A stretch of 40,795 nt of DNA, taken from Chitinophaga pinensis (GTDB lineage: Bacteria; Bacteroidota; Bacteroidia; NS11-12g; UBA9320). The stretch covers positions 1 to 40,795 of the forward strand of contig CAMDGU010000025.1 in NCBI GenBank assembly GCA_945897885.1. Reading direction: 5' to 3'. A program made the translations under genes and the position numbers. Below are positions 1,883 to 14,581 of the stretch, one piece after another (the first letter of the stretch is position 1; the number at the start of each line of letters is the position of its first letter). Below the pieces are notes generated by a model. The model ran no database searches. It was given only the letters and a program-made list of their open reading frames with translations, and was not told where the DNA came from.

Positions 1883-2038
1883 TTTTACTCAGATAAGGAA
1901 TTATGATGAATACATATCATTTTTATAATTTAATATCTTAAGATATACATTTATACTTAGCATCAAACAAATATTAGCCAAGTTTTGTCAGAAAACAAAC
2001 AATTAGATTTTGGTTATTAAAAAAAAATATCAAATCTC

Positions 2039-2440
2039 TTAAATAATCATAACTCCTTGCTTGCCGGTAAACGGAACAGGAACAAAGAATTCAGGTGAAA
2101 TGCTGCCCGGCACAAACTCGTACTTGCGTTCGTATATTTTTTTACCAATATAAAAGCTTACCCAAAACCGATTGCTTAGATGAAATATTTCTTCCATTAT
2201 AATTTCGAACGAAATGGCACATCGCGGTTTAACAGATTCCATATAATGCCTGAATGTAGCGGTGCTAATAGATTGGCTATCTTCATTTACCCCAAAACCG
2301 CTTGAATTAATAATAACATTTTCCAGTCGGTGGTCGCTTAAATTTATGAAATATACTTTCCAGTCGTTTACCGCCTCCGATTCTTTAACAACCGCAATTC
2401 CTATATCTTTTACTTCTTCTGATATGATATCTTTTAGCAT
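2039..2440 (-). CDS. Small conserved hypothetical protein (Bacteroidota)
   Basis: This 133-residue protein has no signal peptide or membrane segment, so it should be cytoplasmic. It starts MLKDIISEEVKDIGIAVVKE and reads like a compact alpha/beta fold; from memory, similar short proteins with the same start occur in other Bacteroidota, but I cannot name a function. The start is supported by a TAnnTTTG element (TAAATTTG on the minus strand, 2446-2453) ending only 5 bases before the ATG, which implies a very short or absent leader. It is divergent from the rhomboid gene, with 185 bases between them. Confidence 0.7.
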   Translation of the reverse strand: MLKDIISEEVKDIGIAVVKESEAVNDWKVYFINLSDHRLENVIINSSGFGVNEDSQSISTATFRHYMESVKPRCAISFEIIMEEIFHLSNRFWVSFYIGKKIYERKYEFVPGSISPEFFVPVPFTGKQGVMII

Positions 2441-2445
2441 TGCTG

Positions 2446-2453
2446 CAAATTTA
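2446..2453 (-). promoter_or_regulatory. Bacteroidota -7 element (TAAATTTG) for the gene at 2039-2440
   Basis: On the minus strand this reads TAAATTTG followed by CAGCA and the ATG at 2440. It matches the known Bacteroidota -7 consensus TAnnTTTG exactly. With a start site about 6 bases downstream the mRNA would be nearly leaderless. Confidence 0.55.
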
Positions 2454-2625
2454 TAGAAATTTGAAAGTGGATAGTGGAAATTTGCGGATTGTATCTTTTT
2501 ATTTAGGATTAGAAATTTTGAATCTTTCGTTATTCATACAAATTTCAATTTTCAAATTTCCAGTATGGCTTACTATTTGTCCAAACCCAATATCGTGTAT
2601 TCATTATTTTTATTACTTTCGGAAA

Positions 2626-3288
2626 ATGATTAGGTTATTACTATCGGCATTGGATAGCGCTCTATATCCCTTAATACTGGTGATGACCATGTGGGTAGCC
2701 TATTTTTTTAATATCAATTACCACTGGCATTTGGAGGAGTTTGGGCTACAACCACAAACCTTGCAAGGCTTAAGAGGAATTCTTTTAATGCCATTTTTGC
2801 ATGAGAATTTTGAACATTTGTTTAGCAATTCCATTCCGCTATTGGTAGCAGGCAGTTTTTTATTTTATTACTTTAAAAATTGGACGTGGCTTATTACAGG
2901 CGTTGTATGGCTAATGGGAGGCCTTATTTTATGGTTTATTGGTGAACCCAACAGTATACATATAGGAGCAAGTGGTTTGGTATACGGGTTAGTATTTTTT
3001 CTTTTGGTATCGGGCATTATAAGGGGGCATAGAAACTTGGCAGCCGTGGCTTTACTTATGGTGTTTTTATATGGCAGTTTGGTGTGGGGGCTTTTTCCCG
3101 ATTATGTCAGGCTGATGAAGGAAAATATTTCGTGGGAAGGACACCTTGGTGGAGCAATAAGTGGCATGGTAATGGCGTTTGTGTTAATTAACAAAGGGCC
3201 TCAAAAGCCTGAGGAAGACATAGCCAAAGATGATGACGATATAGATGACCAATACCCTTACTGGCTAGATGACGATAGCAACCAATAA
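2626..3288 (+). CDS. Rhomboid family intramembrane serine protease (apparently shortened at the C-terminus)
   Basis: Rhomboid proteases cut membrane proteins inside the bilayer. The ATG at 2626 is chosen because the upstream 62 codons (open from 2440) look like untranslated intergenic DNA; the protein is then 220 residues. Visible features are about six membrane helices, the H-x-N-x-x-H segment (HENFEHLFSN, ~59-68), the catalytic serine in HIGASG (S116) and the catalytic histidine in WEGHLGG (H173). The acidic tail ...DDDDIDDQYPYWLDDDSNQ ends at a TAA (3286-3288), but the same frame stays open for 33 more codons of similar charged sequence, up to a TAA at 3388-3390 that overlaps the start of the next gene by 8 bases. 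This suggests a nonsense change of a CAA codon, readthrough, or a sequencing error. Loss of the tail should not remove the catalytic core. Confidence 0.88.
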   Translation: MIRLLLSALDSALYPLILVMTMWVAYFFNINYHWHLEEFGLQPQTLQGLRGILLMPFLHENFEHLFSNSIPLLVAGSFLFYYFKNWTWLITGVVWLMGGLILWFIGEPNSIHIGASGLVYGLVFFLLVSGIIRGHRNLAAVALLMVFLYGSLVWGLFPDYVRLMKENISWEGHLGGAISGMVMAFVLINKGPQKPEEDIAKDDDDIDDQYPYWLDDDSNQ

Positions 3289-3390
3289 CCAAAAGAAGAC
3301 GAAAAAGAAGAACCTGAAACCAATGCAGAACCAGCTATAAAATTTAGATATGTTCCAAAAAATGCCAATCCCTGGGAAAAAGATGATTAA
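3289..3390 (+). other. In-frame continuation of the rhomboid reading frame after a TAA
   Basis: After the TAA at 3286-3288 the frame continues for 33 sense codons rich in K, E, P and D, and ends ...IKFRYVPKNANPWEKDD. The final TAA (3388-3390) overlaps the ATG of the following gene in the arrangement ATGATTAA, which is typical of translational coupling. The segment therefore looks like the original C-terminus of the rhomboid protein, now separated from it by one stop codon. Confidence 0.6.
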
Positions 3391-4348
3391 ATTTAGTTTT
3401 TGGTTAATAGCTATTTATGGGTTGTTTCAACCAATAATGGGTTTTGCATGGGGATTTAAAGCACATAAGCAAATAAACAATTCGGCTGTTTTTACTTTGC
3501 CACCCGAACTATTTAAGTTTTACAAACTGCATGTAGATGAAATTACAGAAAAAGCCGTAAGTGCTGATAAGCGACGTTATGCCGTTGCTGATGAAGCTTG
3601 CAAACATTATCTGGATGCCGATCATTACGAACTATCGATTCCTTTAGACACCATCCCACACCAATGGAAAGATGCTTTGGCCAAATATTCAAAAGATACA
3701 CTTACAGCATACGGCATTGTGCCCTGGCATTTGCAACTAATGAAGTACCAATTAACAAAAGCCTTTGAAGAAAAAAATTTATACTTAATAATAAAACTGA
3801 GTGCCGATTTAGGCCACTATGCTGCCGATTTGCATGTACCATTGCACGCTACCCAAAATTACAATGGCCAATTATCTGGTCAAGAAGGCATTCATAACCT
3901 ATGGGAATCGCGGGTGTATGAATTATTTAGCAGCAATTATGATTTTTTAACCGGTCGTGCTTCTTATATTTCAAACATTAACGAAACCATTTGGCTACGT
4001 TTTTCACAAAGTTTTGCTGCACTAGACAGTGTTCTTTTGTTTGAAAAACTAGCCACAGAAAAATACCCTAACAAATATGTACTGCAAACCAACGGTACCC
4101 AAAATACAAAACTGTACAATGAAACCTTTTGCGCTTATTATCATGAATTGCTAAATGGTATGGTAGAGCGCAGAGCCAGAGCATCAATAGATTTAATAGG
4201 CTCGCTTTGGTATACAGCTTGGGTAGATGCAGGCCAGCCCGATTTAAGTAATCTTAAGGAAGAACCTAAAAAAGAGGATGCTGAAGAGCAAACCTTTTTG
4301 CAACGACTCATGCAAAAAGGACAAATAATTGGAAGAAAGGAAGAGTAA
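3383..4348 (+). CDS. Zinc-dependent phospholipase C / S1-P1 nuclease-like secreted protein
   Basis: This 321-residue protein starts at the ATG at 3383; earlier in-frame ATGs (3350, 3362) lie inside the rhomboid tail. A signal peptide ends near FA|WGFKAHKQIN, leaving a tryptophan as mature N-terminus. In this fold the N-terminal Trp and nearby His ligate zinc, followed by further His and Asp ligands seen here as H28, EACKHY (~72-76), PWHLQL (H116), DLGHYAADLHVPLH (H145, D149, H155) and GIHNLWE (H171, E175). Family knowledge suggests hydrolysis of phosphodiesters (phospholipid or nucleic acid) outside the cytoplasm; the exact substrate is not determinable. The C-terminus is charged (KEEPKKEDAEEQTFLQRL). 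It follows the rhomboid gene directly and is probably co-transcribed with it. Confidence 0.82.
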   Translation: MIKFSFWLIAIYGLFQPIMGFAWGFKAHKQINNSAVFTLPPELFKFYKLHVDEITEKAVSADKRRYAVADEACKHYLDADHYELSIPLDTIPHQWKDALAKYSKDTLTAYGIVPWHLQLMKYQLTKAFEEKNLYLIIKLSADLGHYAADLHVPLHATQNYNGQLSGQEGIHNLWESRVYELFSSNYDFLTGRASYISNINETIWLRFSQSFAALDSVLLFEKLATEKYPNKYVLQTNGTQNTKLYNETFCAYYHELLNGMVERRARASIDLIGSLWYTAWVDAGQPDLSNLKEEPKKEDAEEQTFLQRLMQKGQIIGRKEE

Positions 4349-4442
4349 AACAAATGAGAAAATGATTTTTTTTAAAGCATTTTATTCTTACCTCAACTTT
4401 TGGAGTTCATAGTTCAACATTCGCAGTTCAACAATAATTATG

Positions 4443-4450
4443 TAGGTTTG
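4443..4450 (+). promoter_or_regulatory. Bacteroidota -7 element (TAGGTTTG) upstream of the PBP1A gene
   Basis: TAGGTTTG matches TAnnTTTG and lies 19 bases before the ATG at 4470. The 120-base gap before it also holds two direct copies of AGTTCAACA (4411-4419 and 4425-4433). The element suggests the penicillin-binding protein has its own promoter, separate from the rhomboid pair. Confidence 0.5.
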
Positions 4451-4469
4451 CACGTCCAAATAATCTTAT

Positions 4470-6740
4470 ATGTTTAAGGCATTAAAAAAAGCAATATCCA
4501 ACCCCAATAACTATCAGGCCATTACCAAAAAACTTTGGCGTTATTTTTTTATAGGACTCATTGGAGTAGTTGTCTTTTTACTCATGGTAAAAGTGGGTTT
4601 GTTTGGCAAAATGCCGGATATAGATGAACTGGAAAATCCAAAAACAAGTTTGGCCTCAGAGGTATACAGTGCCGATAAGGTGCTCATGGGTAAATACTAT
4701 TATGAAAACCGTGCCAATTGCGAGTTTAAAGAATTACCAAAAAATCTGATTAATGCCTTGGTAGCCACCGAAGATATTCGTTTTTACAAACATTCAGGAA
4801 TTGATATAAAAGCCCTAACCCGAGCCTTAGTTTTTTTAGGAAAGGATGGAGGAGCTAGCACCATATCGCAGCAGTTGGCCAAAAATTTATTTCATAGCCG
4901 CAGCACATTTTTGCCTGCACGTATGCTTCAAAAGCTTAAAGAAATGATTATTGCCGTGGAATTAGAAAAGCGCTATACCAAAGACGAAATTGTAATGCTT
5001 TACTTTAACACCGTTCCGTTTGGTGGTAATTCATTTGGTATAAAATCGGCAGCTAAAACTTTCTTTAGCAAAGAACCCAAAAAACTAGCCGTTGAAGAAT
5101 CGGCCATGCTGGTAGGAATGCTTAAAGGAAGTACGCTTTACAATCCGGTTCGAAATCCGGAAAGAGCTGTAAAACGAAGAAATGTGGTATTAACCCAAAT
5201 GCACAAATACGATTTTTTAACCGATGGTGAATTTGAAATAGCAAAGGAAACGCCTCTTACTCTTAAAATATCGGTCCAAAACCAAAACGAAGGAATAGCA
5301 CCCTATTTTAGAGATTACGTCAGAGAATATTTATCAGAATGGTGCAAAGCCAGAAATTTAAACATTTATAGAGATGGACTTAAAATTTACACCACCATTG
5401 ACAGCAAAATGCAGCGTCACGCTGAAAATGCGGTAGAAAAACAAATGGCCACTTTACAAAAAGAATTTTTTAACGAATGGAAAGGCCAAAACCCATGGAG
5501 GCAAGAAAAAGAAGGCTGGAAAGAAGACACCAATTACCTATGGAAGAATATTAAGAAAACTGACAAATACATTTCACTTAAAGAAAGATTTGGTAAAGAG
5601 AGAGATTCCATCATGTCTCATCTTAGAAAAAAAGGACCAATGACAATTTTTACATGGCGTGGCGATAGAGACACGATGATGAGCACTATAGATTCGTTAA
5701 AGTATTATAAATCACTTTTACATACCGGTTTTATGAGTATGGACCCGCATACCGGCGAAATTAAAGCATGGGTGGGTGGCAATAATTTTAAAAACTTTCA
5801 ATACGACCACGTAAATAAAGATGCCAATCGTCAGGTTGGTTCCACTTTTAAGCCGTTTGTATATGCATTGGCTATTGACAATGACCTTTCGCCATGTTAT
5901 GTAGCACCGACTGGGCCGGTTACATTTAAAATGCCCGAAGGTGGCTATTGGACACCCAAAAACTCCATGCGAATAAAGTCGACTCACCTTAATTTATATC
6001 AGGCTCTAAAACTTTCTGTAAATACAGTGACTGCCCATTTAATGCAAAAATTGGGAACCAATTCTCCTTACTCGGTGCGTAAACTGATTGGTAAAATGGG
6101 AATTGACTCTACCAAAATTCGCCCCTACCCTTCTATTTGCTTGGGTTCCATGGATCTTTCGGTGTTTGAAATGGTTGGAGCATACTCCACCTTTGCCAAT
6201 GCCGGCGAATTTGTTGAACCTATTTTTATAACCCGAATTGAAGATAAGTATGGTAATGTATTGGAAGAATTTACTCCAAAACGTGTAGAAGCCATGCGTA
6301 AACAAACGGCCTATGCCCTTTGCAAAATGATGGAACTTACCACCCAACCGGGAGGAACAGCTTCAAGAATGCGAACCACCTACGGAATTCCTTATGATAT
6401 ACCGATAGCCGGAAAAACAGGAACGACCCAAAACAACTCTGATGGTTGGTTTATAGGTGTAACGCCTGATTTGGTAAGTGGTGCATGGGTTGGTTGCGAA
6501 GACCGTCAGGTGCATTTTAGAAGTACAGCCCTTGGACAAGGTGGCCATATGGCTATGCCTATTTTTGCTCATTACATGCGCGAAATTTATAACGACCGTT
6601 CCATTGTTATTACAAAATCTGACTTTAAAAAGCCGGATATTGAAATGACCATTGAATTGAATTGCGAAAACTACCAGGAGAATTATAACGATGCTCCGCC
6701 AGATGAAGAACCCGACCCTATTGAGGGAGTAGATTTTTAA
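4470..6740 (+). CDS. Class A penicillin-binding protein 1A (transglycosylase/transpeptidase)
   Basis: This 756-residue bifunctional enzyme polymerises glycan strands from lipid II and cross-links the peptides in the periplasm. A short cytoplasmic N-terminus and one membrane helix (~23-45) are followed by a GT51 transglycosylase domain (~60-250) with catalytic Glu in ATEDIRFYKHSGID (E101), GASTISQQLAKNLF and the RKRYTKDEI-like segment. The transpeptidase domain (~420-700) has the SxxK serine in RQVGSTFKPF (S458, K461), SVN (516-518) and KTGTT (649-653). Between the two is a ~100-residue lysine-rich insert (~325-420) typical of Bacteroidota homologues. All catalytic motifs are intact. The gene is convergent with lptD. 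Confidence 0.95.
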   Translation: MFKALKKAISNPNNYQAITKKLWRYFFIGLIGVVVFLLMVKVGLFGKMPDIDELENPKTSLASEVYSADKVLMGKYYYENRANCEFKELPKNLINALVATEDIRFYKHSGIDIKALTRALVFLGKDGGASTISQQLAKNLFHSRSTFLPARMLQKLKEMIIAVELEKRYTKDEIVMLYFNTVPFGGNSFGIKSAAKTFFSKEPKKLAVEESAMLVGMLKGSTLYNPVRNPERAVKRRNVVLTQMHKYDFLTDGEFEIAKETPLTLKISVQNQNEGIAPYFRDYVREYLSEWCKARNLNIYRDGLKIYTTIDSKMQRHAENAVEKQMATLQKEFFNEWKGQNPWRQEKEGWKEDTNYLWKNIKKTDKYISLKERFGKERDSIMSHLRKKGPMTIFTWRGDRDTMMSTIDSLKYYKSLLHTGFMSMDPHTGEIKAWVGGNNFKNFQYDHVNKDANRQVGSTFKPFVYALAIDNDLSPCYVAPTGPVTFKMPEGGYWTPKNSMRIKSTHLNLYQALKLSVNTVTAHLMQKLGTNSPYSVRKLIGKMGIDSTKIRPYPSICLGSMDLSVFEMVGAYSTFANAGEFVEPIFITRIEDKYGNVLEEFTPKRVEAMRKQTAYALCKMMELTTQPGGTASRMRTTYGIPYDIPIAGKTGTTQNNSDGWFIGVTPDLVSGAWVGCEDRQVHFRSTALGQGGHMAMPIFAHYMREIYNDRSIVITKSDFKKPDIEMTIELNCENYQENYNDAPPDEEPDPIEGVDF

Positions 6741-6856
6741 AAAGGTTTAGTTTTGAAGCTACCTAATTATTCCAACATCAAAAAATTATTCAGCTCAATT
6801 ATTATAGTAAATGTTTTTTCGATTTGAGGGCTTTGCCGTCTATAACTTCCATTCAC

Positions 6857-6907
6857 TTTTTTTCTTAAAAAAAGAAGGTCAGGATGTTAGGGGCTAATAG
6901 CCCCTAA
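6857..6907. terminator. Convergent terminator region between PBP1A and lptD
   Basis: Two hairpins sit in the 208-base gap between convergent genes. The first is CTTTTTTT-CTT-AAAAAAAG (6857-6875). The second has a perfect 9-bp stem, TTAGGGGCT (6887-6895) pairing with AGCCCCTAA (6899-6907) around a 3-base loop. Neither has a long U tract directly after the GC-rich stem, so the termination role is inferred from position. Confidence 0.5.
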
Positions 6908-6948
6908 TGCAAGTAAACACTTTTTAAGAATTCCTTTTTGAAATTCGA

Positions 6949-9516
6949 CTAATTATCAAACCAGAAGTTTCTTCGGTTTAGTTTCAAATCCTGAAGGGTG
7001 CTTGATTTTACACGAATGGTAAAATCAAAACTCCGGCGAAAACCAGTTGGTATCCATCCAAAGCTAAATTCCCAGCAATGTAAATCGCGATGAAGATCAA
7101 TTTTAGTAACTGCTAATTCTTTGGTTTTAAAATCATACCCCGAACCTACAGCTACTTTCCAGTTCTCACTTAATTTTAAATCCCCATTAAATGTAATACT
7201 TTGAGTTATTTGATTAGCCTTGTGTGGGTTTGGTTTGCTGTAATAAAAATTATAATTTAATGCCAATGACCACGGAATATTGAAATCGACATAAAACTGC
7301 GGATAATTATTAATCATAGCCAACTCCTGCTGTGAGGCATTATTTGAAGTTTTGGGTTTACGAGCCTGAGGATTAAGGTTTGTTCCCATACTCAGGCCAA
7401 AATTGGTTAGTCTGCCCAAACTTTGTTTATCCATAATAATAAGCTCATTGGTTCGGCGAGTGGTGTATTTGTATGGGTCAATGGTCCAGTTATAATTTAT
7501 GCCAACTTTACCTTTAAACAACGACGAACGTCCGTTAAACCCAAGATTGCTCCACTTAAAACTATCCGCCAAAAAATTATGACTGGCAGAAATATTCAGC
7601 ATCTCAATTAGCTTTATTTTTTTTGAAACAATACCTGTATCGGTTTGTTTTCTCACCTTAAGTTCGATGTTATTATTAACGTTAAATCCAATAGAACCCT
7701 CTTTACCACCTGAAGGATGGCCTAACCCTGTGTTACTAAATATAGAATACTGTTGGATGTTTCCGGCTGTATCTGTTTGAACCTGGCGATACCCATTTTT
7801 ATACGTTTGCATATTGGGTCTGAAACCAAAATTGATGCTAGGGTTAACTACATGCCGGATGGCTTGCAACTTGCCTTTTTTAAATTGGGCCAAACCAAAA
7901 AGTGTGGTATTTATCCCAATCCCACCTTGAATAGACGATGCTCTGTCAAAACCCAAGGTCTGCTTGGTAAGTAATGTATCTCTGCTGGCATCCCATATTC
8001 TTTCAATTGATTTTAAGTACCAGTATTCCGTATACGAAACCGTTGGATTCATTTGAAAATATTTTAAAAATTTGATGGAAGCAGATAATGGGATAGAATG
8101 GGTCATTCCGTTATTTAAACTATCAAAAATATTTATGTTTTCAGGATTCTTTTCAAAACCAATGGCAGGGCCAAGGTTCTTTTGCTTCATCAACACACTG
8201 TTTCTAATATCTCCGTTATACGAAAGTCCCAGGGATTTTAAGGCTTTACTTCGGGTATTCATATTTTGAAACGGCGTAATACGGGGCACGTTGATGTTCA
8301 ATTCAGGCAGGGTTAAATCCACCTCTTCACGACCTAAATTTTGAGTGATACGGCTACCTGCACTAAGGTTTAAATTATTATTTAAAAATGAGGTACGGTA
8401 GTTTACCGTAGACTGAACAGTGGATTGTATAATGCTTTGCTGTTGAAAAGAGTTGTTTCGATTATAATTACCCGACATGTAATTAACATTGGCATTAAAC
8501 GATTTACCTGGTCTGGCTTTGGGGTCCATGGTATAGTTCCATTTTAAAACATAATCATTGGAAATACTTATCCCGGTTTCTTCTTCACCGAATCGGTTAT
8601 GAACATAATCAAACCCTAAATTTCCTCTAAATTTATAACGCTTGGCATAGTTTGAATTTATATGAAAACCATAACTTCCTCTAAAATAAAAATCACCGGT
8701 TAAAGCCAAATCAAAAAACTTGTTCAGAGGGAGATAGTATCCCAAATTTCGCAGAAAAAATCCACGGTCTTGAGTTTCGCCATAGGTTGGAAAAATCACA
8801 CCCTTTGCTTGTCCTTTTTGCAATGGAAAAAATCCAAAAGGTATAACCAATGGTGTATTAATCTCTGCTAATAACAAGTTTGCGGGGCCGGTAACAACTT
8901 GCTTTCCGGGAATAATTTTAAACTTTTTTGCCAAAATATAAAAGTGCGGATGAACCGAATCATTGCACGTAGTATATCGTGCATTTTTTATGTAGGTATT
9001 ATTATCAGGGTCTTTATAGGTTTTTTCTCCAAACACATAGCCCTCCCCTTGGGTGGTTCGGGCATTAAATACCAATGCCTTTTTAGTATCAAAGTTATAC
9101 TTCATACTATCGCTTGTAAACTGGTCTTTGGTATCCATAAAATGCGGACGATGAACTAGTATTCCCTCCGAATTTTTATAGGCCTTTGCAAAAACATCTT
9201 TCGAATTAAAGTCAACCATAATAAACCCTGCATCCAAATTTATTTCTTCATAATGAACTTTTGCGTTGCCGTAGAGGTAAACCTTTTTGCCCGGTAAATC
9301 CAAAACCATAGAATCGTCAGCACTATATTCAATTGGCACTTCAATTCCCGATTTCGCCTTTATATTAAGCGTATCTGCTTTGATTGTATCGGTTTGTGCT
9401 TTTAGACCAAACTGCATACAAACAAAGACAATTAACCATACAAAATGGAAAAAAGATGTATCAAATAATTTTTTATGAGTACTTTTCGTTATAATATTGT
9501 GCTTGAGTTTAGGCAC
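6949..9516 (-). CDS. lptD: Outer-membrane LPS assembly protein LptD (OstA-like), Bacteroidota type
   Basis: LptD forms the outer-membrane pore that inserts lipopolysaccharide at the cell surface. From a GTG at 9516 the product is 855 residues: a signal peptide (ending ...MQFGLKAQ|TDTIK), an OstA-like periplasmic N-domain ('LPGKKVYLYGNAKVHYEEINLDAG', about residues 60-250) and a long beta-barrel with many aromatic-ended strands, finishing in ...LNRRNFWFDN. The frame is open back to an ATG at 9705, but that extension overlaps the divergent amidase gene and looks non-coding. A TAATTTTG promoter element on the minus strand at 9531-9538 lies inside the extension, 15 bases before the GTG, which supports the shorter start. 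Its neighbours are also envelope genes. The LptD assignment is firm at family level; lineage function is by homology. Confidence 0.85.
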   Translation of the reverse strand: MPKLKHNIITKSTHKKLFDTSFFHFVWLIVFVCMQFGLKAQTDTIKADTLNIKAKSGIEVPIEYSADDSMVLDLPGKKVYLYGNAKVHYEEINLDAGFIMVDFNSKDVFAKAYKNSEGILVHRPHFMDTKDQFTSDSMKYNFDTKKALVFNARTTQGEGYVFGEKTYKDPDNNTYIKNARYTTCNDSVHPHFYILAKKFKIIPGKQVVTGPANLLLAEINTPLVIPFGFFPLQKGQAKGVIFPTYGETQDRGFFLRNLGYYLPLNKFFDLALTGDFYFRGSYGFHINSNYAKRYKFRGNLGFDYVHNRFGEEETGISISNDYVLKWNYTMDPKARPGKSFNANVNYMSGNYNRNNSFQQQSIIQSTVQSTVNYRTSFLNNNLNLSAGSRITQNLGREEVDLTLPELNINVPRITPFQNMNTRSKALKSLGLSYNGDIRNSVLMKQKNLGPAIGFEKNPENINIFDSLNNGMTHSIPLSASIKFLKYFQMNPTVSYTEYWYLKSIERIWDASRDTLLTKQTLGFDRASSIQGGIGINTTLFGLAQFKKGKLQAIRHVVNPSINFGFRPNMQTYKNGYRQVQTDTAGNIQQYSIFSNTGLGHPSGGKEGSIGFNVNNNIELKVRKQTDTGIVSKKIKLIEMLNISASHNFLADSFKWSNLGFNGRSSLFKGKVGINYNWTIDPYKYTTRRTNELIIMDKQSLGRLTNFGLSMGTNLNPQARKPKTSNNASQQELAMINNYPQFYVDFNIPWSLALNYNFYYSKPNPHKANQITQSITFNGDLKLSENWKVAVGSGYDFKTKELAVTKIDLHRDLHCWEFSFGWIPTGFRRSFDFTIRVKSSTLQDLKLNRRNFWFDN

Positions 9517-9530
9517 TGATAAACAGCCCT

Positions 9531-9538
9531 CAAAATTA
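9531..9538 (-). promoter_or_regulatory. Bacteroidota -7 element (TAATTTTG) for lptD
   Basis: On the minus strand this reads TAATTTTG, an exact match to TAnnTTTG, 15 bases upstream of the GTG at 9516. It argues that translation of lptD does not begin at the far upstream ATG at 9705. Confidence 0.5.
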
Positions 9539-9577
9539 CAACAAGAAACGGGAGGTTTAAAATTAGTTATTGACCAA

Positions 9578-10498
9578 ATGAAAGTAATAAAGCTAAGAGA
9601 TTGGCATGAGGAACAACTAAAAGCAAAAAAACGCTTCTTAACTGAAATTCTTGTTTCAGGCCGGGTGCTTATTATCTCTTTTTCTTTAATAGCCTTATTT
9701 AGCATTCAGGCGGTTTTTAACAAAAATCGTGCCTCCGGTGCCAAAGATTCTAACAATTCAGAATTAAACGCTTTTTTGGCCGGCGAAAAAAAAATTAAGA
9801 CTATTATTATAGATGCAGGTCATGGCGGAAAAGATCCTGGTTGCGTGGGTTCAGGAAATTCTTTTGAAAAAAATATTGCATTAGATATTGCCTTAAAACT
9901 CGGAAAACTAATTGAAGATAGTGTACCTATGGTTAAGGTAATTTATACACGCAAAAGTGATAAATTTATTGAATTATTTCAAAGAGCTGCAGTGGCTAAT
10001 AATAGCAATGCTGATATTTTTATGTCCATTCATTGCAATTATAATCCTACCAATACGATACATGGTTTTGAATCTTACATTATGGGAACTCATAAAACAG
10101 CTGCCAATCTTCAGGTATCAAAACGAGAAAACGAGTCCATTTTATTAGAAAAAGATTACAACACAAATATAGAATACGAAGGTTTTGACCCAAATTCACC
10201 TGAATCAGATATTATTTTTTCACTTTATCAAAATGCGTTTATGGATCAAAGTGCTCGACTGGCAAGTAAAGTTCATGAAGCAGTAAAAAGCCATAAAGTA
10301 TTGCATGCCAAGGAAGTTAAGCAAGCTGGTTTTCTGGTGTTATGGAAAACAGCCATGCCCAGTATTTTAATTGAAACCGGTTTTTTGAGCAATGCAGAAG
10401 ATTTAAAACTCCTCAATTCAGAAGAAGGCCGAAAAAATTTATCATATAGTTTGATGGTTGGGTTTAGAAATTACTGTAATTGGTATTCAAATCAGTAA
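9578..10498 (+). CDS. N-acetylmuramoyl-L-alanine amidase (Amidase_3 family)
   Basis: This 306-residue zinc hydrolase cuts the bond between MurNAc and L-Ala in peptidoglycan, as AmiA/B/C do during cell separation. The ATG at 9578 is chosen over a TTG at 9497 that would overlap lptD. It has a charged N-terminus and a single membrane helix (~29-48). The catalytic domain starts at IIIDAGHGGKDPG (zinc His 82), continues with SFEKN (zinc Glu 97) and MSIHCN (zinc His 152), and ends with the catalytic Glu in ILIETGFLSN (E266). All ligands are present. A Bacteroidota-typical insert lies between ~170 and 230. It is divergent from lptD and followed 41 bases later by an MCE gene, which suggests a shared envelope role. 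Confidence 0.93.
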   Translation: MKVIKLRDWHEEQLKAKKRFLTEILVSGRVLIISFSLIALFSIQAVFNKNRASGAKDSNNSELNAFLAGEKKIKTIIIDAGHGGKDPGCVGSGNSFEKNIALDIALKLGKLIEDSVPMVKVIYTRKSDKFIELFQRAAVANNSNADIFMSIHCNYNPTNTIHGFESYIMGTHKTAANLQVSKRENESILLEKDYNTNIEYEGFDPNSPESDIIFSLYQNAFMDQSARLASKVHEAVKSHKVLHAKEVKQAGFLVLWKTAMPSILIETGFLSNAEDLKLLNSEEGRKNLSYSLMVGFRNYCNWYSNQ

Positions 10499-10503
10499 AT
10501 TTG
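10496..10503 (+). promoter_or_regulatory. Bacteroidota -7 element (TAAATTTG) before the MCE gene
   Basis: TAAATTTG matches TAnnTTTG and overlaps the stop codon of the amidase gene (TAA at 10496-10498). It lies 36 bases before the ATG at 10540, so the MCE gene may be expressed from its own promoter as well as by readthrough. Confidence 0.4.
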
Positions 10504-10539
10504 CGCCTCACAAATCCTTAATAGAACTTTCCTAAAACA

Positions 10540-11499
10540 ATGAAAATAAGTAACGAAACCAAAGTAGGTGCAATAGCGGCTATATCAATCACCATCCTTA
10601 TTTTAGGTTATAATTTTATGAAGGGTGAAAACCTTTTTACTTCCTACAACCGCTATTATGCCGCCTATGATGATGTGGACGGATTATTTAAATCAAATCC
10701 GGTAATGATTAATGGGTATAAAATTGGTCAGGTAAGTGATGTAAAGATGGACCCAAAAACTTTAAAACTTATGGTGGAAGTAAAAGTTCCTGATAATATT
10801 AAAGTTTCAAAAGACGCCACGATAAAAATTATCAATACCGATTTAATTGGCTCAAAAGGAATTCAAATTATCATGGGTAAATCCACTGAAATTGCTAAGA
10901 CCGGTGATATTTTAAGTTCTGATAAAGACCAAGGAATGGCTAAAACAGTCAGTAAACTAATAGCCCCTCTATCTGAAAAAATTAATACCCTACTTACTGA
11001 AATTAACAATCAAATTGGTGGTGACCAGATAAAAATCACACTTCAAAGTCTTAACAAAACCTTAAACACTGCCGATGTAGCTATTAAAGAATTGGAAACC
11101 ATGATTACTAGCAAAAATGGACAAATTGATGGCATATTGGGCAATGTTAATTCTGTAACCGCTGATTTAAAAACCTCTACCCCAAAAATAAACAGCATCC
11201 TAGCCAATATTGAAGAAACCTCTGCCGAGCTTAAAAAACTGGAACTGGAAGCTACTATAAAACAACTTAAAACAGTTTTGGCTGATTTGTCTACAACCAT
11301 TGGTAATATTAACAAAGGTCAAGGCTCCTTAGGTAAAATAGCTACCGATGATGAACTTTACAAAAAACTAAACGCAACTCTTGAAACCTTTAATAAACTA
11401 GCTGCTGATATTGAAAAATATCCAAGTCGCTATACAGGAATTACTAAGTCTCAGCGCAAACAAGCAGATAAAGAAAAGAAGAAAGCAGGGGAGAAGTAA
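10540..11499 (+). CDS. MCE family (MlaD-like) lipid transport protein
   Basis: MCE proteins are membrane-anchored hexamers that carry lipids between inner and outer membranes. This 319-residue protein has one N-terminal membrane helix (~9-26), an MCE domain (~36-115, 'YYAAYDDVDGLFKSNPVMINGYKIGQVSDVKM') and a long helical C-terminal region (~140-300) rich in T, K, N and L with repeats of the type 'LNKTLNTADVAIKELE', likely coiled coil. The ATP-binding and permease partners (MlaE/MlaF) are not in this window. The end of the gene faces the toxin gene with only 7 bases between them. Confidence 0.9.
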   Translation: MKISNETKVGAIAAISITILILGYNFMKGENLFTSYNRYYAAYDDVDGLFKSNPVMINGYKIGQVSDVKMDPKTLKLMVEVKVPDNIKVSKDATIKIINTDLIGSKGIQIIMGKSTEIAKTGDILSSDKDQGMAKTVSKLIAPLSEKINTLLTEINNQIGGDQIKITLQSLNKTLNTADVAIKELETMITSKNGQIDGILGNVNSVTADLKTSTPKINSILANIEETSAELKKLELEATIKQLKTVLADLSTTIGNINKGQGSLGKIATDDELYKKLNATLETFNKLAADIEKYPSRYTGITKSQRKQADKEKKKAGEK

Positions 11500-11506
11500 T
11501 TGAAAA

Positions 11507-11773
11507 TTAGGGGAAATAGGTATAAATATCCTTTCGGTTTAAAAATCGAAGTAAGGTAATAGTTTCTTCTTCCAATTTCAGTCCGAGCCTATAGTTCCCA
11601 ATTCTTATTCTATAGTAATTACCTTTACCTTTTAATTTTTTAAGGTTTTTAATTTCAATTAGCGATTTGCAATTTTCAAGGTCTTCGATTATCGTATTTA
11701 ATTGAATGGCAAGTTTTGTATCAGAGATATTTTCAACATCCTTTTCAAAAGATTTTTGAACTTCTATTCTCAT
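11507..11773 (-). CDS. RelE/ParE-superfamily toxin of a type II toxin-antitoxin pair
   Basis: This 88-residue protein has the RelE/ParE fold pattern: helical start with 'FEKDVENISD', then 'IKNLKKLKGKGNYYRIRIGNYRLGLKLEEETITLLRFLNRKDIYTYFP', including the typical basic residues in YRIRIGNYRLG and the closing strand ...RKDIYTYFP. Such toxins cleave mRNA on the ribosome or target gyrase; which applies here cannot be told. Its ATG overlaps the antitoxin stop by one base (TAATG), which indicates translational coupling. It appears intact. Confidence 0.85.
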   Translation of the reverse strand: MRIEVQKSFEKDVENISDTKLAIQLNTIIEDLENCKSLIEIKNLKKLKGKGNYYRIRIGNYRLGLKLEEETITLLRFLNRKDIYTYFP

Positions 11774-11982
11774 TAACCTCCGGCAATTTTTGACAAATGA
11801 GCCTTAACATTACTCAATTTTCCTTTGGGAGTTTTCTCTGCATCTTTAAGTAATGAACTAAATAGAAAATCCTCCATATCAGCTTTTGAAAACGTGGATG
11901 CTTCCTTCTGCATTTTTTTCAAAAGGTTTAGAAGGAAAGTAGTTTCACTTTTAGATTTTGATGGGACGAGGATATATTCCAT
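11773..11982 (-). CDS. Antitoxin of the RelE/ParE-type pair
   Basis: This 69-residue protein lies directly upstream of the toxin, as expected for a type II antitoxin. It begins with a strand-like MEYILVPSKSKSETTFLLNLLKKM, followed by helical, charged sequence. The C-terminal part (KGKLSNVKAHLSKIAGG) probably wraps the toxin. No classical HTH is obvious, so DNA binding would rely on a ribbon-helix-helix-like N-terminus, which is an inference. A TATTTTTG promoter element on the minus strand (12002-12009) lies 19 bases before the ATG. Confidence 0.75.
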   Translation of the reverse strand: MEYILVPSKSKSETTFLLNLLKKMQKEASTFSKADMEDFLFSSLLKDAEKTPKGKLSNVKAHLSKIAGG

Positions 11983-12146: not shown

Positions 12147-12665
12147 ATGAAAAAAATTATCTATCTATCTATCTATCTATCTATAGGCTTTCTATCTGCT
12201 GGTAGGGCGTTTGGCCAAGTTAAGGACTCGACTGGCAATTATTTAGTATTATATTCTGGAGAGGTACATATGGGAAAATCTTTGGAATATTTGCCGCCCT
12301 ATATAGTTTTAGATCAAGTAAAATATCTTGATCGCGATGTAGCAATTTGGAAGAATCATTTTGGAGTGTTTGCTAATACCCTTCATTTGAATAACACTAA
12401 AAAAGTAATGTTCATGAGGGCTGAAAAAGTGGGTAAAATAAATCTGTATATTCAAGTTGATCGTCTTGTTATTAATGGGCTGGTAAGTCATACTGAAACA
12501 TTATTTTATAATAAAGGATTTGAAAAATTGAAAGAGGCAAAGAAAAAAACTCTAAAAGAAGATTTAAAAGATAATCAAGGATCAATTAATGTATTAAATA
12601 AATTATTTGGCAACAGTGTTGAGTATATTAAAAAAGCAATAGATATCTACAATTCGGAACTTTAA
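12147..12665 (+). CDS. Secreted protein of unknown function with a tetranucleotide repeat in its signal peptide (paralog 1, in frame)
   Basis: This 172-residue protein begins MKKIIYLSIYLSIGFLSAGRAFGQ, a signal peptide whose core (IYLSIYLS) is encoded by tandem CTAT units. I do not recognise the mature domain; it contains LYSG..., 'GVFANTLHLNN' and 'GKINLYIQ', and is lysine-rich near the end ('EKLKEAKKKTLKEDLKDNQGSINVLNKLF'). The next gene encodes a clear paralog: LYSG, FANTLHL/YANTRHL, GKINLY and the 'FEKLK/IEKLK' segment align in order. Compared with that neighbour it ends early, just after SVEY..., and lacks the two C-terminal hydrophobic segments. In this sequence the frame is ON; one repeat unit less gives TAG directly after the tract, and one more gives TAG 18 codons after the start of the tract region. 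Confidence 0.8.
   Translation: MKKIIYLSIYLSIGFLSAGRAFGQVKDSTGNYLVLYSGEVHMGKSLEYLPPYIVLDQVKYLDRDVAIWKNHFGVFANTLHLNNTKKVMFMRAEKVGKINLYIQVDRLVINGLVSHTETLFYNKGFEKLKEAKKKTLKEDLKDNQGSINVLNKLFGNSVEYIKKAIDIYNSEL
12158..12184 (+). repeat. Tetranucleotide tandem repeat (CTAT, 6.75 units) inside a coding region
   Basis: Perfect period-4 sequence runs for 27 bases starting 11 bases after the ATG of the gene at 12147. Because 4 is not a multiple of 3, changes by one unit shift the frame. By hand translation, six full units are in frame, five give a TAG at the end of the tract, and seven lead to a TAG shortly after it. This is the structure of a contingency (phase-variable) locus. Confidence 0.9.
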
Positions 12666-12675
12666 AATTACCTAA

Positions 12676-13394
12676 ATGAAAAAATATATTTTAATCAATT
12701 ATCTAATTCTTTTATTTATCGGTAAGGCATTGGGCCAATCAACTGAAAAGATTTTTTTTGTTTAAAACTCTATTCAGGAAATGTTGTTAAATGTGATTCC
12801 TTTGTTAATTGCTTTAGTCCATTTGTCATAGCAGATGGAATAAAATACCATTTTGATAGTGTAGAATTTTACAAAACTAGTGTTAACTTTTATGCAAATA
12901 CTCGTCATTTAAGAAAAGGTAACGAATCATATTTCATGCCAGCAATACCATATGGAAAAATTAATTTATATAGCATTACAATAACCAGCAATCCCAGTAG
13001 TCAAGGGTATTATAACGGAACAGGTAACACAAAAAACTCAACCTATCTTTCTCAATCCCATGAATATTTACTGTACAATAATGGAATAGAAAAATTAAAA
13101 AGGGCAAGCTATCCAAATCTTAAAATAGATTTAGCAAATAACCCAAAAAGCATGAAAATACTTAGACAACATAAGGCTTTAAGTTGTGTTGAATACTCGA
13201 TTTATGCTTTGAGTGTAGTTGTATTTGCAACTGGTATCCAATTAATAGGGAATATGAATAACAATGATGATAATCTAGGTACAGCGTTGTGTGTTTGCAG
13301 TATTCCTGTTTATTATATTGGAAGGTTACTTATGCCTCCATTGAAAAATAAGAAAATTGAAAAAGCATTGTATATCTTTGGAATGGAAAATTAA
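12676..13394 (+). pseudogene. Secreted/membrane paralog 2, frameshifted at a T8 tract (putatively phase OFF)
   Basis: The gene starts 10 bases after paralog 1 with MKKYILINYLILLFIGKALGQ, a signal peptide. The frame runs into a TAA at 12763-12765 just after a run of eight T. The continuation is open in another frame to 13394. Adding one T joins the two parts into a 239-residue product, and the stretch from GQ to LYSG then has exactly the same length (16 residues) as in paralog 1. Later blocks align too (YANTRHL, GKINLY, IEKLKRA). The C-terminal third is extra and carries two hydrophobic helices (CVEYSIYALSVVVFATGIQLIG and LGTALCVCSIPVYYIGRLLM). An internal ATG at 12936 opens 152 residues but lacks a signal peptide. 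The rest of the frame is undamaged, so this is either a recent frameshift, a sequencing error or a switched-off phase-variable gene. Confidence 0.75.
12752..12759 (+). repeat. Homopolymeric T8 tract at the frameshift point of paralog 2
   Basis: Eight consecutive T lie about 75 bases after the ATG at 12676. Nine T would restore the full reading frame. Homopolymer runs of this length slip during replication and are also prone to sequencing error. Confidence 0.8.
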
Positions 13395-13423: not shown

Positions 13424-14581
13424 TCACTCCACCCAACTTTTCCAATAGCCTTTATCCTCCATATCTAAGGCAGCCTGTGTAAGTTGTAACGGATAAAACG
13501 GATCAATCATTACTGCTAATTCTTTCGTTTCTTTAGCCCCTAAACTTTTTTCCACTGTTCCCGGATGTGGGCCATGCGGAATACCTTTGGGATGCAACGA
13601 AATCATTCCCCGTTCCACATGCTTGCGGCTCATAAAATCACCGTCTACATAATATAAAACCTCGTCGCTATCCACATTGCTATGGTTGTAAGGTGCAGGA
13701 ACCGACAAAGGATGGTAATCATAAAGCCTTGGAACGAAGGAGCAAATCACAAAATTATGGCCTTCAAAAGTTTGGTGAATGGGCGGTGGCATGTGCAATC
13801 TTCCAGTTATAGGTTCATAATTATGAATAGAAAAACCATAAGGATATACAAACCCATCCCAACCAATAGCATCAAATGGATGCGTGGCATAAGTGTAAGG
13901 ATAAATCATGTTTTGTTTTTTTATCATTACTTTAAAATCCCCTTGCTCATCATGGGTTTGCAAATTTTGAGGTAATTTTATATCCCGTTCACAAAATGGT
14001 GAATGTTCCAATAATTGCCCAAATTCATTGCGATAACGCTTTGGGGTAACAATGGGTGAAAACGATTCGGTTATAAATAATCGGTTATTGGGAGTATCAA
14101 AATGTATCTTATAAATTGTCCCGCGAGGAATAACCAAGTAATCGCCATACTCAAAGTTAATTTCACCATAAACCGTTAGCAATTTTCCACTGCCTTCATG
14201 CACAAAAATAACTTCGTCAGCATCGGCATTTTTTACAAAATAATCAGTGGTACTTTGGGTTGGAGCTGCCGATGACACCGTTAAATCCTGATTACCCATT
14301 AGCACAAAACGGCTTTTTAAATAGTCGGCTTCGGGCCTGGTTTTAAACGTAATAAAACTCCGGTTTTGCATGTTTTTCTTCAAAACATATTCAGGTTCTA
14401 CATTCCAGGCTTCACCAATATCCTTAACCAATGTAGGTGGATGACAATGGTAAACTAAGGAATATACACTCGAAAAACCGAGGGTACTTACAAGTTCTTC
14501 AGCATATAGGTTTCCATCAGCTTTGCGAAACTGTGTGTGGCGTTTTGGTGGAATATTTCCAAGTCGGTGGTAAAATGGCAT
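13424..14581 (-). CDS. hmgA: Homogentisate 1,2-dioxygenase
   Basis: The enzyme opens the ring of homogentisate to maleylacetoacetate in tyrosine/phenylalanine breakdown, using Fe(II). The 385-residue protein has the paired cupin layout: MPFYHRLGNIPPKRHTQFRK at the start, an N-terminal cupin ('DEVIFVHEGSGKLLTVYGEINFEYGDYLVIPRG'), and the metal site in the C-terminal half: PYNHSN (H300), the acidic residue in DSDE (~306-307) and GIPHGPHPG (H336). It is somewhat shorter than the ~440-residue eukaryotic enzyme, as is usual in Bacteroidota. Other catabolic genes of the pathway are not adjacent. A TAAATTTG element on the minus strand at 14626-14633 is a likely promoter. Confidence 0.9.
   Translation of the reverse strand: MPFYHRLGNIPPKRHTQFRKADGNLYAEELVSTLGFSSVYSLVYHCHPPTLVKDIGEAWNVEPEYVLKKNMQNRSFITFKTRPEADYLKSRFVLMGNQDLTVSSAAPTQSTTDYFVKNADADEVIFVHEGSGKLLTVYGEINFEYGDYLVIPRGTIYKIHFDTPNNRLFITESFSPIVTPKRYRNEFGQLLEHSPFCERDIKLPQNLQTHDEQGDFKVMIKKQNMIYPYTYATHPFDAIGWDGFVYPYGFSIHNYEPITGRLHMPPPIHQTFEGHNFVICSFVPRLYDYHPLSVPAPYNHSNVDSDEVLYYVDGDFMSRKHVERGMISLHPKGIPHGPHPGTVEKSLGAKETKELAVMIDPFYPLQLTQAALDMEDKGYWKSWVE

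Follow-up and report, generated by a model that had tools for sequence, protein, structure and literature searches.

A pure CTAT repeat of 27 bp has been found to write the hydrophobic core (IYLSIYLS) of the signal peptide of an exported protein encoded in the window, by which we mean the whole 40,795-nt stretch of Bacteroidota DNA that was analysed. We consider this tract a candidate for an Opa-like slipped-strand ON/OFF switch of translation, currently ON, and put the probability of this reading at roughly one half. The repeat lies in the first of two tandem paralogues, copy 1 and copy 2, and the features on which the argument draws are the following.

12147..12665, plus strand: copy 1, a probably secreted protein of 172 aa with signal peptide MKKIIYLSIYLSIGFLSAGRAFGQ, a soluble domain and the C-terminal KAIDIYN, without membrane hairpin (ORF list, family alignments).
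12158..12184, plus strand: pure tetranucleotide tract, (TATC)6.75 or (CTAT)6.75 (TRF 100% match; frame test; genome uniqueness; codon simulation).
12676..12765, plus strand: 5′ part of copy 2, with signal peptide MKKYILINYLILLFIGKALGQ, its frame closing directly past T8 (three-frame translation).
12752..12759, plus strand: T8 homopolymer, site of the copy 2 frameshift (sequence; below poly-T cut-offs).
12750..13394, plus strand: main part of copy 2, open in the family frame through membrane hairpin and C-terminus, and shifted relative to its own signal peptide (E 3.3e-85, 1 stop; alignment).

Frame behaviour and rarity of the CTAT tract

TRF has delimited the tract to 27 bp of period 4 (6.75 copies, six full units, 0 mismatches), which begin 11 bases past the A of the ATG at 12147 and span codons 5-13 of the 172-codon ORF. 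Coordinates and unit number thus agree with the preliminary description, and recomputation of the frame has likewise borne out its account that six units leave the 172 residues intact and that five or seven lead to an early stop. Among four to nine units the frame has been found intact at six and nine only, six giving the complete 172-aa protein and nine the complete protein with one extra IYLS, whereas the variants with four, five, seven and eight units end after 11-20 residues (reading MKKIIYLSIYRLSICW, MKKIIYLSIYL, MKKIIYLSIYLSIYRLSICW and MKKIIYLSIYLSIYL, respectively, each followed by a stop). On the sense strand the CTAT repeat is stop-free in three of three frames, each of which reads as an I-Y-L-S cycle. 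Whatever its length, it can thus encode a hydrophobic core, and what follows is shifted in frame. Two properties looked for in contingency genes, an uninterrupted repeat of at least five tetranucleotide units and loss of the product when the unit number changes within the 5′ coding part, are therefore both present in this ORF, and the position of the repeat within a classical signal peptide is the one known from Opa-type genes.

In the mechanism we propose, replication slippage would remove or add one or two 4-bp units and thereby shift the frame inside the signal peptide, so that translation would terminate after 11-20 residues, and six (or three, or nine) units would keep the frame. Three units fewer or more would merely shorten or lengthen the hydrophobic core, as CTAT reads as IYLS whatever the frame. 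The assembled copy would represent the ON state; the slippage rate, the occurrence of OFF cells and a benefit of switching are what we infer for this locus.

The tract is an extreme outlier both against its own genome and against codon usage, which argues for the switch. Five consecutive CTAT units occur once in the entire 3.03-Mb genome, at this position, and in only one other genome among 58 relatives searched, where the tract lies outside any convincing gene. In a 376-kb sample of the same genome, used as the background for period-4 runs, no other such run above 14 bp and no further long tetranucleotide tract has been detected, and in the 243 ORFs of this sample that have 150 aa or more, the other runs within the initial 90 nt reach 10 bp at the most. 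The six units also pass the cut-off of five that has been applied to tetranucleotide tracts in phasome surveys, which again speaks for the switch; on the other side, 6.75 units are near the low end, and a single long tetranucleotide tract in the genome sample is fewer than would be usual in species that use this mode, where many are found.

The same numbers bear on the idea that the peptide IYLSIYLS itself has been selected and that its codons repeat by chance. A congener (G005) retains almost the same peptide with mixed codons, as this idea would have it, but the explanation is already disfavoured by simulation: when the peptide was re-coded by the codon usage of the window, a run of at least 27 bp arose in 1 of 10^6 trials, the exact codons have P about 1e-6, and two rare codons, ATC (10%) and CTA (9%), are each used twice in the tract. 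We regard it as very improbable. An artefact of assembly or binning, by which the unit number or the copy 2 frameshift would be wrong in a draft of 126 contigs, also appears improbable, as ordinary short reads exceed the 27 bp of the tract, six units leave the frame open, and the flanks of the locus are syntenic with those in G005 and in a further relative, G004.

The protein family and its locus in related genomes

The preliminary description did not recognise the family of the mature protein. Profile search and alignment have corrected this, as the protein belongs to a widespread but unnamed Bacteroidota family, and a profile built from the family copies has hits in 13 genomes out of 395 from Bacteroidota. 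In the aligned relatives an exported N-terminus is combined with a small conserved domain (L.NG..I.G.V) and a membrane hairpin, and the sequence closes with KAI..YN. The hairpin is present in 18 aligned relatives and missing in copy 1 of the window only, which retains the final KAIDIYN; since copy 1 is exported and has lost this C-terminal hairpin, its product is probably periplasmic or secreted. Searches of the family against Pfam have given no significant match (best E 0.029, below the cut-off of that Pfam family), and NCBIfam and PDB profile searches have returned neither a family name nor a solved relative detectable by sequence. An Opa beta-barrel has accordingly not been recovered in mature copy 1, given the absence of a Pfam or NCBIfam match and the build of its relatives from an exported domain and a membrane hairpin. 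Structure prediction for the two window copies reached a mean pLDDT of 47, too poor for a fold search, and a short match confined to the N-terminus (L009), obtained in a protein scan of the genome contigs, was not counted as a relative.

The pair sits between a gene at 10540-11499, which we take to be mlaD-like, and one at 13424-14581, presumably hmgA-like; a third family copy is located on contig C4 of the same genome. Copy 2 starts at 12676 as a tandem paralogue of copy 1, and past T8 its family frame is open to 13394. As a second switch T8 has been rejected, being below the published poly-T cut-offs for phase variation (at least 10 or at least 11) and common here, since 148 homopolymer runs of at least 8 occur in 376 kb of this genome. 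Upstream of copy 1, a RelE-like toxin gene (11507-11982, minus strand; TIGR02385 E 1.3e-4, below cut-off) and, upstream of it, a partner of 69 aa have been observed; among the loci compared, these two genes between mlaD and copy 1 are present in the window only and absent in G005 and G004.

The corresponding interval varies among the relatives. G005 has two family members there, 301 and 220 aa long. In G003, other ORFs and a single family gene come after mlaD, and in G004, the nearest genome by MlaD (93%), mlaD directly adjoins the hmgA-like gene. The 301-aa gene of G005 (L011 7550-8455) carries two tandem family domains behind one signal peptide. Orthologous family paralogues additionally show an ATT repeat about 10 nt 5′ of the start, (ATT)5 in the window genome (L010 6050-6065) and (ATT)7 in G005 (L007 1987-2007); this tract of species-variable length is below the cut-offs, and we note it without using it as evidence of switching.

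In G005, whose copy 1 begins with MKKIIYLFIYLSINFLSADRAFGQ, the tract region is equally long and departs from that of the window at 12165, 12169 and 12176 (C/T, C/T and T/C). Two of these substitutions are synonymous and one exchanges Ser for Phe, which gives the peptide IYLFIYLSI in mixed codons. Relatives that encode the IYLS residues with mixed codons had been named in the preliminary description as grounds to abandon the switch, and taken literally this is what the congener presents, at identical length. The slipped-strand interpretation hence stands in part: its anatomy, a pure non-triplet repeat at the 5′ end with truncating neighbours in unit number, is upheld and joined by similar tracts elsewhere, while the mixed codons of G005 count against it. 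As 24 of 27 positions still agree with the pure repeat, for which P = 0.0013 given the G005 peptide and codon usage, we read the G005 sequence as an old, decayed tract, the direction of change being unprovable from one orthologue. Read in this way the 24/27 agreement speaks for the switch, and the interruption by three substitutions, which leaves the tract unconserved, speaks against it, as do the empty locus in G004 and the combination of a copy 1 without hairpin and a frameshifted copy 2, which would fit decaying genes. An allele of copy 1 with a different number of units has not been encountered, which likewise speaks against the switch.

These observations lead to a close rival of the switch. 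A neutral microsatellite may have arisen in a signal peptide of a dispensable and decaying gene pair, either through slippage or through purifying substitutions, and CTAT would be tolerated there since every frame of it yields hydrophobic IYLS; the locus would perhaps be more mutable, and switching would be unselected. We hold this to be nearly as likely as the switch, given a gene pair that appears dispensable and in part broken, and a tract that lacks conservation. The locus empty in G004, the copy 2 frameshift at T8, the loss from copy 1 of a hairpin kept by 18 relatives, the interrupted G005 tract and the lack of more tetranucleotide tracts in the genome sample are all in line with neutrality, and a coding-strand CTAT repeat needs a permissive hydrophobic stretch, which alone would be enough to place such tracts in signal peptides. 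Against neutrality, the frame of copy 1 is still intact and its signal peptide and cleavage region are good, and the same arrangement is shared by four unrelated exported proteins, two of them out of frame.

CTAT tracts in other Bacteroidota

A search for five CTAT units in 395 Bacteroidia and 395 Bacteroidota genomes, two overlapping samples, has yielded 17 separate tracts of at least five units when the window is included. Thirteen of them are intergenic or outside convincing genes; the remaining four begin a long ORF on the CTAT strand, in all four cases within the signal peptide, and the four proteins are unrelated. The three outside the window belong to other Bacteroidia families and are of exported type.

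In G612, a tract of 39 bp (L084 1499-1537) lies in the signal peptide of a 1301-codon ORF (L121 1449-5351) with FG-GAP and UnbV_ASPIC domains and a T9SS type A sorting domain at its end. The frame of its ATG reads MSKSIYLSIYLSIYLSH and stops, and another frame reads IYLSIYLSIYLSITLIFNEVRAQ and continues for the 1301 codons, so that with its start codon out of frame the gene is likely an OFF allele. A tract of 27 bp in G105 (617-643 of the reverse complement of L085; gene on the minus strand of L122) belongs to a dockerin-type exported protein, in which the ATG frame gives MKTFFTKHLSIYLSIYQ before a stop and the other frame proceeds through IYLSIYLSVVCVDAWSQ to the dockerin-type domain. An in-frame start upstream of the G105 tract has been sought and not found, and the out-of-frame start is apparently what would be expected of an OFF allele. 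The third case, G746, shows a tract of 21 bp before a 515-aa exported-type protein whose start is ambiguous and would require two shifts. A search for orthologues of the G612 and G105 proteins that differ in unit number has returned none.

The occurrence of signal-peptide CTAT in unrelated exported proteins, two of them with the ATG out of frame, counts for the switch. From the ORF density of the sample (243 in 376 kb) we estimate by hand that ORF starts, taken as the first 60 nt on the right strand, make up about 2% of double-stranded sequence, and 4 of 17 exceeds this expectation with a probability of about 3e-4, or about 4e-3 without the window, again estimated by hand. Coding constraint may explain part of the excess, since only hydrophobic stretches tolerate CTAT.

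G192 (L124, C1:1834000-1848000) contains two near-identical, paralogous genes of lipoprotein-like type (MKNITLLSLILL...), and about 100 nt upstream of each lies a CTAT tract; the two tracts measure 38 and 44 bp, which indicates that CTAT tracts change length. G9 runs are present in the window genome and in all related genomes, the one inspected being intergenic, and they have not been used as evidence. Other repeats were observed at L027, where a tyrosine-kinase-like polysaccharide gene (8155-10620, minus strand) ends in a long C-terminal YGYGYG repeat and several hexamer and octamer tandem repeats lie in or near ORF starts (1990-8334).

Since CTAT is stop-free and yields IYLS in every frame, a functional signal peptide would recur at every third length, with the gene OFF at the lengths between. 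One may tentatively postulate, though we lean against it, a recurrent and undescribed class of contingency genes in Bacteroidota in which exported surface proteins have a signal-peptide core built from CTAT; the window gene would be ON and those of G612 and G105 OFF.

Relation to known phase-variation systems

Slippage in a signal peptide is as a kind already known from the opa genes of Neisseria, in which CTCTT coding repeats in the leader peptide are switched by slipped-strand mispairing (PMC3960869; PMC3899988). The window gene resembles them in the short non-triplet repeat within the signal-peptide core of an exported protein, where gain or loss of units shifts the frame. It differs in a unit of four instead of five bases, in its Bacteroidota host, in having one tract per genome and in being a candidate switch only, and its protein matches no Pfam family and no known beta-barrel adhesin. 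Haemophilus influenzae reportedly possesses tetranucleotide contingency genes (lic, mod and others), which De Bolle is said to have treated in 2000, and shares with the window a tetranucleotide tract at the 5′ coding end and a frame-dependent ON/OFF state. The tracts of H. influenzae usually comprise more units and are not known to make up a signal peptide, in contrast to the 6.75 units in the signal-peptide core found here.

A limited literature search has found no paper that links CTAT or IYLS tracts to phase variation, and none that brings together phase-variable genes, simple sequence repeats and Bacteroidota. In this phylum, DNA inversion is the main known route to phase variation, and in Bacteroides it concerns capsule and SusC/SusD genes. 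Passages of a 2025 review (PMC11868660) describe inversions for Bacteroides. Those systems belong to the same phylum and concern phase variation of surface structures, as is proposed for the window, but they use recombinase inversion where we propose slippage. If the proposal is true, control of exported proteins by repeat slippage in uncultured Bacteroidota would widen the expected range of contingency genes; if the tract is neutral, it would stand as a warning that signal peptides shelter microsatellites that encode hydrophobic residues.
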